A stretch of DNA of 64,000 nucleotides from Acidobacteriaceae bacterium KBS 146 (lineage in GTDB: Bacteria > Acidobacteriota > Terriglobia > Terriglobales > Acidobacteriaceae), in NCBI GenBank assembly GCA_000688615.1, contig JHVA01000001.1, positions 1,550,001-1,614,000 on the forward strand. The letters are read 5' to 3'. The notes beneath the pieces are model-generated. The model was not told the DNA's origin. It did no database searches and was given only the letters and a program-made list of their open reading frames with translations. This document shows positions 2,964 to 7,269 of this stretch, piece after piece. Made by a program: the position numbers and the translations under genes. The number at the start of each line of letters is the position of its first letter. The stretch's first letter is position 1.

Positions 2964-3623
2964 ATGGAAGTCCAAGGTCTCCAGATGACTGAAGCTAAGA
3001 CCGCCCCCGGGCTCTTCAAGCGCAATCCACCTATTGCGGGTGAAGCAGAAGCGATTGAGCGCGCCAAAGCAGGCGACGCAGAGGCTTTTTCGAAGCTCTA
3101 TGCATTGCATAAACGTCGCGTATACACCCTGTGTCTTCGCATGCTCGGAAATGTCTCCGAAGCCGAAGACATGACCCAGGAGGCCTTCCTCCACCTCTTT
3201 CGCAAGATCGGCAGCTTTCGCGGTGAAAGTGCGTTCTCGACCTGGCTACACCGTTTGACAGTAAACCTTGTCCTTATGCACCTTCGCAAGAAGGGGCTGC
3301 AACTGGTCTCTCTGGAGGAGACCATTAATCCTTCGGAAGAAGATTCCCCCAAGCGTGATTTCGGAAGTCGCGATACTCAGCTCGCAGGATCTGTCGACCG
3401 TGTCGCTCTTGAGCGAGCCGTTGCTTCACTTCCTCCCGGCTATCGCATGGTTTTTGTGCTTCATGACGTTGAAGGTTTTGAGCATAATGAAATTGCAGGC
3501 ATGCTTGAGTGCTCAACCGGAAACAGCAAATCTCAGCTCCATAAGGCTCGCCTCAAGCTTCGGGAGCTGCTCCGTCGATCGGAGTCCACCGCTCAGGCCG
3601 AGGTTAAGGAAGCGGCATTATGA
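2964..3623 (+). CDS. ECF-family RNA polymerase sigma factor (RpoE-like)
   Basis: 219 residues with the two-domain ECF layout. Sigma region 2 spans about residues 30-105 ([50 protein letters not shown]), and region 4 spans about 150-205 with the helix-turn-helix ([20 protein letters not shown]). A variable linker lies between. ATG at 2964 is preceded by CGGAG at good spacing. The gene overlaps the next one by 4 nt (ATGA), the usual coupling of sigma and cognate anti-sigma. The expected role is envelope or oxidative stress transcription released by a signal acting on the downstream protein; the signal cannot be read from sequence. Confidence 0.92.
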
Positions 3624-3907
3624 CCTTGAAGAACTCTAGCCCTATCCCGTTATCTTGCGCTGAATTTCAGGAACAACTACCCGATCTGTTCGCTGCCGGC
3701 AGCGGTGCTATCCACGATCCTCAACTCACTGAGCATCTAAAGACGTGCGAAAACTGCTCCGCCCTGGTTCGCGATCTGCAATATATCGCAGATCAGGCGA
3801 AGCAATTGCTTCAGCCCACGCACGAACCCAGTGACAGCGTCTGGAAGAAGATCCAGGAAGGTCTTGCCGCTGATTCCAGCCTTGTCCCTGAACCCAGCAA
3901 GAATTGA
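3620..3907 (+). CDS. Putative zinc-finger anti-sigma factor
   Basis: 95 residues, translationally coupled to the ECF sigma gene. A Cys near residue 14 ([16 protein letters not shown]) and [11 protein letters not shown] (H-x3-C-x2-C, about residues 36-46) form the anti-sigma (ZAS) fingerprint that clamps an ECF sigma factor. The protein has no transmembrane segment and ends soon after the zinc domain, so it would be a soluble anti-sigma factor, typical of thiol/redox-responsive pairs of the RsrA type. Redox sensing is inference from the missing membrane anchor and the CxxC. Confidence 0.8.
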
Positions 3908-3958
3908 CTCACAAATAAGTTGATTCTGGGATTTTGTCCGTGTATGGTCGTACACAGT

Positions 3959-4048
3959 ATGGTGCATAGCTTCAACTCCGCCCGATTTAGCTTTCGCTAC
4001 TGGTATCCGGTAGCGGCCGGCGGAGCCTCGCATGTACCTCTGAATTAG
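3959..4048 (+). CDS. Aromatic-rich leader peptide of aroK
   Basis: 29 codons ending at TAG 4046-4048. The peptide reads MVHSFNSARFSFRYWYP and then VAAGGASHVPLN. Five of seven residues in FSFRYWY are aromatic (TTT AGC TTT CGC TAC TGG TAT), covering all three end products of the shikimate pathway. An in-frame ATG at 3944 would add MVVHS at the N-terminus; GGGA at 3928-3931 is a weak ribosome site for it. The peptide sits directly before an intrinsic terminator and shikimate kinase, the position of classical pheA or trp leader peptides. The start codon is the least certain part. Confidence 0.7.
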   Translation: MVHSFNSARFSFRYWYPVAAGGASHVPLN

Positions 4049-4079
4049 CCAGACCTCAGAGCCTTCGATCTTCCCCGAG

Positions 4080-4110
4080 CCGCGACCCCAAAGGTCGCGG
4101 TTTCGTTTTT
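4080..4110 (+). terminator. Intrinsic terminator in the aroK leader
   Basis: An 8-bp G+C-rich perfect stem, CCGCGACC / GGTCGCGG, with loop CCAAA is followed by TTTCGTTTTT. It ends 31 nt before the preferred aroK start. Lying before a gene, preceded by a leader peptide and by a competing complement of its 5' arm, it is best read as an attenuator; it could also terminate the sigma/anti-sigma transcript. Confidence 0.8.
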
Positions 4111-4141
4111 ACACTAAAGAATGAGACACCGGAGAAAGTCA

Positions 4142-4738
4142 ATGTCATTCAGCCAGCAAGTCCTCAGCGCTCTCGACCCCGCAAAGGTCCCATCTGACGT
4201 TCTTCCCTCCCATCTACGTCGCCTGGTGCTCACAGGCTTTATGGGCGCTGGCAAATCAACGGTTGGCCGCCTTCTCGCTGCACGCCTCGGATGGGAGTTT
4301 CTGGACCTTGACCAGCATCTGGAAAACCGTGCGGGTGCCACCATCCCGGAGCTGTTCTCCCGACATGGCGAAGCCTATTTTCGTCGCCTGGAATCCACCG
4401 CTCTGGCCTCAGCTCTCGGCCGCTCGAAGGTTGTGCTCGCCCTTGGCGGAGGAACGCCGGAAGACCTCACCAATCGGCTTCTCATCGAACAGACTCCCGG
4501 TACTGCTACGGTCTTCCTCGATGCCCCCTTCGCTACGCTCTTCGATCGCTGTGTCCTCCAGGAGATCTCGCGACCGGTCCTTGCTGATCCAGCAGCGGCA
4601 CAGGTCCGATTTGAACGACGTCGCCCCCTTTATACCCGTCTGTCGCACCTCACCGTCGAGACCACCAACCTCTCCTCGGATCAGACCATCGAAGCCATCC
4701 TCTCCGGGCTGAACCAGATTCCGTACTTCCGCACCTAA
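4142..4738 (+). CDS. aroK: Shikimate kinase
   Basis: 198 residues from the preferred ATG at 4142, which has GGAG nine bases upstream (ATG 4121 in frame would add seven residues). It phosphorylates shikimate at the 3-OH with ATP, step five of chorismate synthesis. Visible are the Walker A loop LTGFMGAGKSTVGRLLA, the substrate-binding Asp/Arg region LGWEFLDLDQHLENRAG, FRRLES, ALGGGTPE, and a lid with SRPVL and ERRRPLYTRL. The N-terminal 25 residues before the fold are longer than in E. coli AroK. aroB and aroC lie elsewhere in this window in separate transcripts. Control by aromatic amino-acid supply is suggested by the upstream leader. Confidence 0.93.
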   Translation: MSFSQQVLSALDPAKVPSDVLPSHLRRLVLTGFMGAGKSTVGRLLAARLGWEFLDLDQHLENRAGATIPELFSRHGEAYFRRLESTALASALGRSKVVLALGGGTPEDLTNRLLIEQTPGTATVFLDAPFATLFDRCVLQEISRPVLADPAAAQVRFERRRPLYTRLSHLTVETTNLSSDQTIEAILSGLNQIPYFRT

Positions 4739-4741
4739 GGC

Positions 4742-5851
4742 GTGCAGCGCAAACTATCGGCATCTAATCGGTATACCGATCCACAGGAGAATAAGCTGGC
4801 CTACGAGACCGATTCGACCATTCAGGAGAAGCACTCCCGCCGGATTGTGCGAGGGCATATTCTTTTTGCCTTTGGATTGCTCCTGGCGCTGGGCCTGGCG
4901 TGGCTGCTTGCAAAAGAGATCATTCTGATCTATGTCAGCGCCCTGTTCGCCGCCGTCCTGATGCCGATCGTCAATCGCATCATGCGGACCCACATCCGGG
5001 GAAAACAGCCATCAAAAGCAGCGGCCATCTTTTTGATCGTTGCTGGAATTGGCCTCGTCGTCGGCATCTTTCTCACCGTCGGCCTGCCTCCCGTGCTGCA
5101 TGACCTCAACCAGTTCTCTACGGAGCTTCCTTCGCGCATCCCGAAGGTGATGTCTCGACTGGACCAGCTCCCAATTGCCAATCGGCTGGGTGTGGATGAG
5201 ATCGCTCATCGTGCCGAAGGTGCACTCACGACGACAGCCAGCTACCTGATGACCTCGCTGCCGAACTGGCTCTCGCACCTGTTTGACATTCTCTCCGCCC
5301 TCTTCCTCTGTATTTATTTCATGCTCGAAGGCGATGCCGCCTATCGGTTCGCGCTCTCTTTAGTTCCTCCGACTCACCGGAGTCGTCTTGGTTCGACTCT
5401 CGAAAAGGCAGACGACAAGATCAGCAACTGGCTCATCGGCCAGGGCCTCCTCATGGTTATTCTCGGAGTCTCCTCGACCATCGTCTTCGCAATCCTGCAC
5501 GTCCGCTATTTTTTGCTCCTCGGATTTCTGATGGGCCTGTTCAATATCATTCCCATCGCGGGCGGCGTCGTCACCATTACTCTCGCCGCGATTGTCGCAG
5601 CCTTCGACTCCTGGAGCAAAGTCGCTGGAGTGCTTATCTTTTACATTCTCTATTTGAATGTCGAGAACGCTTACCTCATCCCGCGCATCATGGGGAGCAG
5701 TGTTGAGCTTTCAGGACTCACCATCCTCATCGCTCTTCTCTGTGGCACTGCACTGGCTGGAGTCACCGGGGCTCTCGTGGCGGTTCCCACCGCTGCTCTC
5801 ATTGCTGTTCTTCTCGAGGAGTACGCTGTTTACAAAGATGTAACAGAGTGA
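4742..5851 (+). CDS. AI-2E/PerM family membrane transporter
   Basis: 369 residues from GTG 4742, three bases after the aroK stop. The family (PF01594) has about eight membrane helices. Here a helix pair lies near residues 40-80 (HILFAFGLLLALGLAWLLA, EIILIYVSALFAAVLMPIV), a third near 100, then a soluble segment, then a hydrophobic C-terminal half containing GLFNIIPIAGG and VPTAALIAVLLEEY. Members export small molecules or ions; substrates are mostly unknown and AI-2 export should not be assumed. TAAGG lies close before the GTG; an alternative is the non-standard CTG at 4796 with AGGAG at ideal spacing. Probably co-transcribed with aroK. Confidence 0.85.
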   Translation: MQRKLSASNRYTDPQENKLAYETDSTIQEKHSRRIVRGHILFAFGLLLALGLAWLLAKEIILIYVSALFAAVLMPIVNRIMRTHIRGKQPSKAAAIFLIVAGIGLVVGIFLTVGLPPVLHDLNQFSTELPSRIPKVMSRLDQLPIANRLGVDEIAHRAEGALTTTASYLMTSLPNWLSHLFDILSALFLCIYFMLEGDAAYRFALSLVPPTHRSRLGSTLEKADDKISNWLIGQGLLMVILGVSSTIVFAILHVRYFLLLGFLMGLFNIIPIAGGVVTITLAAIVAAFDSWSKVAGVLIFYILYLNVENAYLIPRIMGSSVELSGLTILIALLCGTALAGVTGALVAVPTAALIAVLLEEYAVYKDVTE

Positions 5852-5944
5852 AGTGCAACAGCACCAATGGTCTATAGATCATCGATTAGCCGTCTCTAAA
5901 AAATTTAGCGCGGATAGAATCTGGGCTTGCTATCCTGTTTTGCA

Positions 5945-6547
5945 GTGTCCGAACTGAAGCTTCGTCAACCCGCTCGTAGCAATCTCCTGGCTCCAGTACT
6001 GATCGCCTTTTTAGTCCTTGGTATTGCGATCGCGCTCATCCTGCGCTTCACGCCTCACAGCACCGCGAAGCTACAGATCCTCCACACCACCGCCTATCCA
6101 ACCCACACGGTCTTCAAATCAGACTCGATCCTGGTTGGACGAGATCGATCCCAGGACGACCTGTACGTCGTTACCACACTCCGCATGGAAGATCGATTGA
6201 ATCTGCCTCTCTTCGTCAAGGATCTCACCGCCACCTTAGAGACATCAGACGGGCAAAAGTTTGAGACAAGCGCTGTCCAGAAACAGGATTTCGAAAATCT
6301 GTTCACGACCTACCCTGCACTGCGCCCTCTCGCCACCTCCCCACTCGTGCGGGAAACTCTCATCGAATCGGGTCAGGCAGCTCAAGGAACGATCATCTTG
6401 CACTTCCCTGTCACGCAGGAAGCCTGGAACCATCGTCGCTCCGCCACACTTCATGTAGCTCTTTACCATCAAGGCAAGGTGTCGATTGCAATCCCGACAG
6501 GCGATCAGGCCTCATCCGTAGACGAAGGAACATCAGAAGACGAATGA
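5945..6547 (+). CDS. Conserved hypothetical single-pass membrane protein
   Basis: About 200 residues from GTG 5945 (TTG 5927 in frame is another possible start; neither has a clear ribosome site). An N-terminal cytoplasmic stretch (SELKLRQPARSN) and one helix (LLAPVLIAFLVLGIAIALIL) precede an extracytoplasmic beta-rich domain with HTVFKSDSILVGRDRSQDDL and LTATLETSDGQKFETS. It resembles no family I can name with certainty. It overlaps rsmE by 4 nt (ATGA), so the two are co-expressed, but no functional link is evident. Confidence 0.7.
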   Translation: MSELKLRQPARSNLLAPVLIAFLVLGIAIALILRFTPHSTAKLQILHTTAYPTHTVFKSDSILVGRDRSQDDLYVVTTLRMEDRLNLPLFVKDLTATLETSDGQKFETSAVQKQDFENLFTTYPALRPLATSPLVRETLIESGQAAQGTIILHFPVTQEAWNHRRSATLHVALYHQGKVSIAIPTGDQASSVDEGTSEDE

Positions 6548-7269
6548 CCCGCCGTCGTTGGATTGCAGACACATGGACGTCGACAACTGCCACGCTCACC
6601 GGAGAACAGGCTGCACATCTTGCGCGTGTTCTGCGAGCGACACCCGGACAGATCTACGACATCGTTGCCGGAGGATTTCTTCATCGCGCTGAAATCGTCA
6701 GCGTCCAGCCCACAGAGGTCGTCTTCGCTCTCCATGAAGAACTCGAATCCGAGACCGCTCTCCCGTTACATCTTCTGCTGGCTGTCTTCAAATTCGACCA
6801 CATGGAATGGGCGATCGAAAAAGCAACTGAGCTCGGCGTAGATCGCATTACACCTATCCTCGCTCGAAGGACGGAAAAGCATCTGTCTCAGGCCGCCGCG
6901 AAGCGAGCAGAACGCTGGCGCAGGATTGCGCTCGAATCTTCCAAGCAGTCGCGCAGAACCACGATACCCACCATAGAAGAACCGTCTTCTCTCAAGCCTG
7001 TTCTGGAAAAAGTGAACGAGCCGGTACGCCTTCTCCTATCAGAAACCGAACAGGAGACCAGCATTGCTTCAGTGCTGAAGGCCAGTACTGCTCCAGACAT
7101 TCGATCCACATACGCGTTGGCGATTGGACCGGAGGGAGGCTGGACTGCAGAGGAGATGCTCCTCTTCCAGGAGCATCAATGGCATCCGGTCACACTCGGC
7201 CCGCGCATCCTTCGCGCCGAGACCGCAGCCATCTCTGCCATCGCAATTCTGTCGTCCCATCTGCTCTGA
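6544..7269 (+). CDS. rsmE: 16S rRNA (uracil(1498)-N(3))-methyltransferase
   Basis: 241 residues, the normal RsmE length. It methylates U1498 of 16S rRNA at the decoding site using S-adenosylmethionine. The N-terminal PUA-like domain (EQAAHLARVLRATPGQIYDIV) is followed by a SPOUT knot domain: KFDHMEWAIEKATELGVDRI, RRTEKH, ERWRRIALESSKQSRR, and the knot motifs LAIGPEGGWTAEE and LGPRILRAETAAISAI. It is translationally coupled to the preceding membrane protein gene. Confidence 0.95.
   Translation: MTRRRWIADTWTSTTATLTGEQAAHLARVLRATPGQIYDIVAGGFLHRAEIVSVQPTEVVFALHEELESETALPLHLLLAVFKFDHMEWAIEKATELGVDRITPILARRTEKHLSQAAAKRAERWRRIALESSKQSRRTTIPTIEEPSSLKPVLEKVNEPVRLLLSETEQETSIASVLKASTAPDIRSTYALAIGPEGGWTAEEMLLFQEHQWHPVTLGPRILRAETAAISAIAILSSHLL

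Follow-up and report, generated by a model that had tools for sequence, protein, structure and literature searches.

The shikimate kinase gene, aroK, in the window (the whole 64,000-nucleotide stretch of DNA analyzed here) is preceded by a leader that we hold with high confidence to be a trp/phe-type ribosome-mediated transcription attenuator sensing the charging of the aromatic tRNAs (Phe, Tyr, and Trp). The reading is inferred from sequence comparison and predicted folding, without expression data behind it. The leader probably acts as an aromatic starvation switch, the response to starvation being inferred, and with the same reservation an initial annotation that had read it as an aromatic attenuator proved largely right. 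The leader ORF, the conservation of its codons, the three helices, their geometry, and the target genes were established by computation.

Features of the aroK leader

In the trp and pheA attenuators of E. coli, the leader ORF carries codons for the pathway product, segments 1 to 4 form mutually exclusive 1:2, 2:3, and 3:4 helices, and a terminator precedes the first structural gene. The aroK leader (Table 1) resembles them in its ORF codons, segments, exclusive helices, and terminator, a likeness that involves no comparison of sequences. It meets the criterion of a short ORF with codons cognate to the pathway product, translation itself being inferred, and that of an intrinsic terminator ahead of the structural gene.

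Table 1. Features of the aroK locus in the window
Feature	Position	Strand	Remarks
Sigma factor gene	2964-3623		Upstream of leader; Pfam Sigma70_r2 and r4
Small gene	3620-3907		Behind sigma factor gene; without a Pfam match; called anti-sigma factor from its position alone
Predicted -35 box, TTGATT	3920-3925	+	Read from sequence
Predicted -10 box, TATGGT	3943-3948	+	17 nt 3' of -35 box
Leader ORF, MVHSFNSARFSFRYWYPVAAGGASHVPLN, plus stop	3959-4048	+	29 codons; ATG at 3959; TAG at 4046-4048
Regulatory codons, Phe-Ser-Phe-Arg-Tyr-Trp-Tyr (FSFRYWY)	3986-4006	+	
Segment 1, CGCTACTGG (Arg-Tyr-Trp codons)	3995-4003	+	Partner 4007-4015; folding, swap test, covariation
Segment 2	4007-4030	+	Pairs with segment 1 through 4007-4015 and with 4066-4086 through 4010-4030; folding, swap tests
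Antiterminator apical hairpin	4038-4061	+	CTCTGA (4038-4043) with TCAGAG (4056-4061); folding, alignment
Segment 3	4066-4087	+	Antiterminator 3' arm; final part doubles as terminator 5' arm
Intrinsic terminator, GAGCCGCGACC-CCAAA-GGTCGCGGTTT then CGTTTTT	4077-4110	+	Hairpin 4077-4103, 11 pairs
aroK, shikimate kinase	4142-4738	+	Pfam SKI, E 7.7e-38

The leader stop codon sits in the loop of the antiterminator apical hairpin, and the T-tract of the terminator is interrupted. The aroK gene, the single match in the window's genome, has a likely ribosome-binding site, GGAG, at 4131-4134. The initial annotation had correctly placed CGCTAC at 3995-4000, GGTAGCGGC at 4009-4017, GCCGCGACC at 4079-4087, the terminator, and the 31-nt gap between position 4110 and the aroK ATG. 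The 29-codon aromatic frame that it described is present; its region began at 3944, and ATG 3959 is the likelier start because the in-frame ATG at 3944 falls within the predicted -10 box. Its proposal of a segment with two alternative partners was likewise borne out, with the antiterminator being longer than described in extending over 4010-4030 and 4066-4086 under the CTCTGA/TCAGAG cap. Within 4121-7269, close behind aroK, were observed genes for an AI-2E family transporter, an unknown product, and an RsmE-family protein, which may share the control exerted by the leader.

Occurrence of the leader before aroK

The first set of aroK loci comprised 20 from named genomes (L001 to L014 being Acidobacteriaceae) and 30 (L021 to L050) taken from the matches of a close-relative search of 61 genomes; L021 is the window's own locus. 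Loci L015 to L020, from other phyla, were left out of the counts; the aromatic scan was empty in five of them and returned an unrelated frame in L020. An aromatic ORF was found in all 44 of the first-fetched acidobacterial loci, the window's own included, and each of them had one small ORF whose aromatic core ended in Tyr-Trp or Phe-Trp. The pattern used for the aromatic ORF was written after a broader scan had been inspected. Chance was ruled out mainly because of the conservation of this ORF across loci. Removal of 7 exact duplicates left 37 distinct leaders.

In a wider sample of the class, the regions upstream of aroK were taken from two more groups of 20 loci, one belonging to the same family and one to other families. 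The leader was present in 8 of the family loci (L059, L061, L062, L065, L066, L067, L068, and L070), which together with the 37 distinct leaders formed a working set of 45 aroK leaders. Among the 12 family loci without it, the terminator scan, itself imperfect, showed a terminator-like hairpin only in L060, and the aromatic scan gave unrelated frames in L054 and L055. Retention of the terminator with loss of the small frame, the outcome that the initial annotation had named as refuting its reading, therefore occurred at most once in the family.

The leader was seen in none of the 20 other-family aroK loci scanned, one of which (L073) was represented by just 220 bases. In these loci the aromatic scan returned unrelated frames in L071, L076, L079, L086, and L088, and the terminator scan gave matches in L075, L082, L085, and L087. 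The terminator scan was imperfect, having overlooked the leader-bearing L012 and L025, where the hairpin was found by a separate search. As a separate observation, L082, L085, and L087, all of one other genus, shared a different hairpin (AGCCCAAG...CTTGGGCT followed by a T-run) approximately 15 to 25 nt before the aroK match. The scan detected no aromatic ORF in these three loci, and the hairpin is perhaps another kind of attenuator.

The leader peptide is constrained up to the Trp codon

Across the 44 distinct peptides encoded by the 45 aroK leaders, 239 of 711 residues were aromatic up to one position past the Trp codon, versus 23 of 603 beyond it. An ATG lay exactly 12 codons ahead of the codon preceding Tyr-Trp in 30 of the 37 distinct leaders. 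The codon before Trp was TAT in 21 of the 45 and TAC in 20, the other 4 having a Phe codon there. Indels in the leader core stayed in frame (L001, L027, L043, and L050), and in L059, L061, and L068 the order of aromatic residues was altered to FWYRYCF with their aromatic character kept. Spacing was also bounded in all 45 leaders, with 39 to 63 nt from the Trp codon (Cys in three) to the stop codon and 29 to 45 nt from the stop codon to the CCGC of the terminator. The Phe codon before Ser/Thr (3986-3988 in the window) was observed to be TTT in 39 of the 45 leaders as aligned, and inspection by eye showed TTT in the six indel-shifted leaders too. Elsewhere these ORFs do use TTC, the overall counts being 87 TTT and 51 TTC.

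Conservation of the peptide could also reflect a TnaC-like arrest peptide, whose signal would be a free aromatic amino acid inside the ribosome tunnel and not the charging of tRNA. The core F-[ST]-x-x-[YF]-W is indeed well conserved, and the Thr or Ser after the first Phe is not aromatic. However, the order and identity of the aromatic residues vary (FWYRYCF, FTYRFSF, and FYFYFYF), and 3' of the Trp codon many nucleotides are conserved despite changes of reading frame from one species to another; we conclude that as far as Trp the constraint is on the peptide, and past it on the RNA. The antiterminator explains those conserved nucleotides. A TnaC-like element would be expected to conserve a particular peptide past the regulatory codons, which is not the case here, and we consider this explanation improbable relative to a leader that responds to tRNA charging.

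Predicted promoter and start of the leader

A consensus scan of 3500-5500 found no sigma-70 promoter, and the promoter was therefore argued from alignment at the leader ATG. The elements TANNNT, 14 to 17 nt ahead of the ATG, and TTG, 37 to 41 nt ahead, occurred together in 40 of the 45 aroK leaders; at background offsets, in the 37 leaders tested, their mean frequencies were 2% and 3%, respectively. The signature was missing in L046, L047, L062, L066, and L070, where the chosen ATG may be wrong. The predicted boxes imply a transcript start near 3954-3957 in the window, and on this inferred start the ORF would be nearly leaderless. A Shine-Dalgarno energy of -5 or better was found at none of the 45 leader ATGs versus 35 of 43 aroK starts, each aroK start having been set at whichever in-frame ATG had the strongest signal, which favors aroK.

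A TA-like box approximately 10 bp before the start codon is given as a mark of leaderless genes, which average 13.3% in three acidobacterial genomes, in a published survey (PMC3160421). With a TA-like box some 10 nt upstream of its ATG and without a Shine-Dalgarno signal, the aroK leader ORF may be leaderless, to judge from these predicted features alone, the transcript start being inferred. An inverted repeat, GTGTATGGTCGTACAC, was also noticed across the predicted -10 box (3940-3955); by eye it is absent from the other aroK leaders compared, and it is possibly an operator, or chance.

The promoter signature bears on whether the terminator, which sits between two gene sets, merely insulates aroK from the upstream sigma-factor genes, with the ORF and stems as by-products. 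We find this scarcely credible, since most aroK leaders carry a promoter signature of their own ahead of the ORF, the ORF and terminator co-occur in the examined family loci apart from L060, and, as described below, trpB and the DAHP synthase and chorismate mutase genes are preceded by related elements. Attenuation remains our preferred reading of the terminator.

Alternative RNA structures

The region 3940-4110 folded better than chance (-66.2 versus -49.4 ± 3.8 kcal/mol; z, -4.43). The terminator showed double-sided changes at 5 of 14 consensus pairs, and a hairpin at its place was present in all 45 aroK leaders. RNAalifold on truncated leaders recovered just a 4-pair GCGG/CCGC core, and alignment-free swap tests were therefore used, in which the pairing of each leader's own segments was compared with permuted partners. 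For the 2:3 helix, own pairing was -22.9 versus -20.5 ± 0.6 kcal/mol (p 5e-5) in 22 hand-picked representatives of the 45 aroK leaders and -22.2 versus -20.7 ± 0.33 kcal/mol in all 45. In 15 of the 45, comprising near-identical L003-like leaders together with L010, L062, L065, and L066 among others, the own 2:3 pairing was no better than the mean with foreign partners.

The same test on 46 leaders standing before four target genes gave -20.8 versus -17.6 ± 0.35 for 2:3 and -16.8 versus -12.3 ± 0.45 for 1:2 (p 5e-5 for each). When divided by target, the 2:3 test was significant for the 17 leaders of chorismate mutase, the 9 of DAHP synthase, and the 8 of aroK (p 0.016) and not significant for the 12 trpB leaders alone (p 0.11). 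In the 1:2 and 3:4 stems of the 46 leaders, standard pairs filled 94.1% of cells versus 84.7 ± 0.7% in shuffled and at most 54.6% in slid alignments, and 86 cells had double-sided changes versus 28.3 ± 3.8 in shuffles. The structure was derived from the alignment on which it was tested, which favors it, and neither the swap nor the covariation tests remove shared ancestry.

Covariation extended to the coding function of segment 1, the middle base of the Tyr/Phe codon and its partner being AU in 23 leaders, UA in 9, UG in 7, CG in 2, and unpaired in 5; both bases were changed in 18 leaders. The 1:2 stem was observed as CCCTGC/GCAGGG in L043 and as CCCCGC/GCGGGG in L050; this difference is compensatory and replaces two amino acids.

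We take the criterion of an antiterminator (2:3) that is exclusive with both the terminator and 1:2 to be met, with the trpB result and the 15 leaders that pair no better than with foreign partners as reservations. The logic of pheA/trp-type attenuation, as suggested in the initial annotation, is thereby backed by double-sided changes and swap tests for three exclusive helices, and the alignment of related upstream regions yielded both the conserved aromatic peptide and the compensatory stem changes that it had named as support.

Folding with a ribosome and the proposed mechanism

For the window RNA, ribosome footprints of assumed size were imposed on the leader. Before segment 4 was included, a footprint at Tyr14 or Trp15 gave the 2:3 helix a probability of 1.0 or 0.97, respectively. 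With the footprint at the stop codon, the probabilities of 1:2 and 3:4 were each approximately 1, and free RNA behaved in the same way. In the full leader with a stalled ribosome at equilibrium, the probability of 3:4 was 1. RNA from past the stalled ribosome to before segment 4 folded into the composite antiterminator in 44 of 45 leaders, the exception being L048, and the z value of the stalled-leader fold was below -2 in 19 of 22 representatives (L010, L048, and L065 were above -2). When segment 4 was present, the terminator won in 43 of 45 leaders even with a stalled ribosome. Because the completed terminator wins at equilibrium, antitermination must be kinetic, the trapping itself being inferred.

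In the proposed mechanism, transcription would begin at or just before the ATG at 3959, and the first ribosome would load on a nearly leaderless transcript. When aromatic amino acids are plentiful, the ribosome would pass the regulatory codons and reach the stop codon at 4046; segment 2 would then be covered or refolded with segment 1, and the terminator hairpin would end transcription before aroK. If any of these charged tRNAs were short, the ribosome would stall over segment 1, freeing segment 2, which would pair with segment 3 before segment 4 exists, and RNA polymerase would continue. Without translation, the default of 1:2 plus terminator would keep the switch off. Control would cover aroK and perhaps also the genes behind it. 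The direction of this control is inferred, as are the kinetic trapping of the antiterminator and the transcript start.

Terminated leader RNA would, by inference, arise whenever aromatics are plentiful, and besides attenuating, the leader might yield a trans-acting small RNA and peptide, for which rnTrpL/peTrpL of S. meliloti offers a precedent (PMC7298713). We regard such an additional role as unlikely; nothing here indicates a trans target, with no target search behind this statement, and the reading frame is not kept in the C-terminal half of the peptide.

Second leader copy and a probable wider regulon

Covariance models were built from 42 leaders (R1) and 46 leaders (R2). In the window's genome, R1 gave two strong matches, the aroK leader (E 1.1e-21) and a second copy at 2722276-2722420 (E 4.2e-12) that encodes MISHSSRFISFIYRYWYPVAASAE. 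This copy precedes trpB (TIGR00263 above cut-off), trpA, DAHP synthase, and prephenate dehydrogenase genes; a threonine-dehydratase-like gene, a sequence impression only, was noted in the same row (L127:3421-9088). The next R2 match in this genome (E 0.044), which ends a frame unrelated to the leader, was left out, and the total is two copies. By eye, no such leader was seen upstream of the two chorismate-binding-family genes of the genome (L195 and L196).

At an E value of 0.01 or better, R1 had matches in 97 of 399 genomes of the class. Sixty of these matches were examined, chosen to span genera and to favor places other than aroK. An aromatic-pathway gene was found by tblastn within 1.3 kb downstream in 58 of them, 52 of which were not aroK, the first match being TrpB in 21, chorismate mutase in 19, DAHP synthase in 12, and AroK in 6; in L185 the DAHP synthase match begins only 809 nt in. 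The two without a downstream aromatic match, L136 and L183, were counted as failures and are weak (E 4.5e-5 and 1e-3), as weak as some of the passing matches.

R2, applied to 396 genomes of the phylum at an E value of 0.001, had matches in 40, including five from outside the class. In L187 and L188 the leader is followed by chorismate mutase and then DAHP synthase, and in L190 a leader encoding FYFYFYF precedes prephenate dehydratase (Pfam PDT), the DNA of L191 being nearly the same. The remaining locus outside the class, L189, was observed to have the leader MTRKLYYCHYWCACTF and a next gene that is unresolved, with a weak similarity of 25% to a threonine-dehydratase query. Distant weak matches may be convergent. 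As judged from sequence, related putative aromatic attenuators stand before several aromatic-amino-acid genes in acidobacteria; aroK, the target given in the initial annotation, does follow the leader and is not its lone target.

Codon content and target gene

A Trp codon was present in 5 of 23 distinct leader peptides before chorismate mutase/prephenate dehydratase, 11 of 12 before DAHP synthase, and 21 of 21 before trpB. The contrast of 5 of 23 versus 32 of 33 for DAHP synthase plus trpB gave a Fisher p of 2.6e-9, and that against DAHP synthase alone gave 1.6e-4. The test excluded L136 and L183, which lack a downstream aromatic match, L163 and L175, which have no clear peptide, L189 (unresolved target), and the aroK leaders, since most of these had been found by a pattern containing W; related genomes were counted separately. 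In L171 the Trp codon of the DAHP synthase leader falls after the core, and L179 is uncertain. These data are no more than suggestive that Trp codons may be rarer in leaders whose first gene is dedicated to Phe and Tyr.

An extended reading is that an ancient leaderless pan-aromatic attenuator family is a main aromatic sensor of the Acidobacteriota, having been duplicated to trpB, to the genes for DAHP synthase, chorismate mutase, and prephenate dehydratase, and in one family, at a late stage, to aroK, with the codon mix tuned for each target. We are evenly divided on it, our estimate having been lowered because Trp-free leaders precede operons that include DAHP synthase, which also serves Trp; in at least five cases (L132, L165, L169, L172, and L187) the gene behind such a leader is that of chorismate mutase, with DAHP synthase next.

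Discussion

Leader-peptide attenuation is a textbook mechanism. Unlike the E. coli trp and pheA attenuators, the aroK leader mixes Phe, Tyr, and Trp codons, its target is a gene of the common pathway, it lacks a Shine-Dalgarno signal, and its composite antiterminator is longer. The trpL RNA of Sinorhizobium meliloti begins with the ATG of its leader ORF, as may also be true, or nearly so, of the aroK leader, and differs in being a Trp leader before trpE(G) (PMC7298713). The trp attenuators of Actinobacteria are likewise classical, lie outside the Proteobacteria, and were found by comparison, and they differ in having double or triple Trp codons; no conserved structure was reported there before phenylalanine or tyrosine operons (PMC1262725).

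The screen of Naville and Gautheret (2010) predicts attenuators in Acidobacteria, almost none with an associated function; it describes leader-peptide attenuation as known from Proteobacteria and Actinobacteria and adds a Firmicutes case, and the words aroK, shikimate, aromatic, and tryptophan are absent from its main text (PMC2965389). An attenuator of DAHP synthase has already been proposed elsewhere, a Shewanella aroF motif having been noted as an attenuator sensing tyr-tRNA (PMC2659441). Among the open-access titles and abstract beginnings in the matches listed, we found no attenuator before shikimate kinase and no aromatic attenuator in Acidobacteria, in keeping with the statement in the initial annotation that no such account was known for acidobacterial shikimate kinase.

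No T-box was among the Rfam matches up to an E value of 5 for 3600-4300 of the window or at gathering score in L127, L131, and L134, and no Rfam leader family matched at gathering score in any of these. Subthreshold matches to RNAI (16.2 bits; gathering, 47) and DUF2693-FD (15.4 bits; gathering, 44.5) were taken as chance. The mechanism is thus of a known kind, and the element, the phylum, the mixed codons, and the set of targets appear new as far as the literature searched reaches.

One related RNA element appears to underlie a set of aromatic attenuators in the Acidobacteria. With its mixed Phe, Tyr, and Trp codons, the aroK leader would sense a shortage of any of the three amino acids, which fits a single-copy gene of the common pathway. 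The leaderless start, if correct, bears on how ribosome and polymerase are synchronized, and codon content that varies with the target may serve as a natural experiment on the way in which attenuation specificity depends on codon choice.
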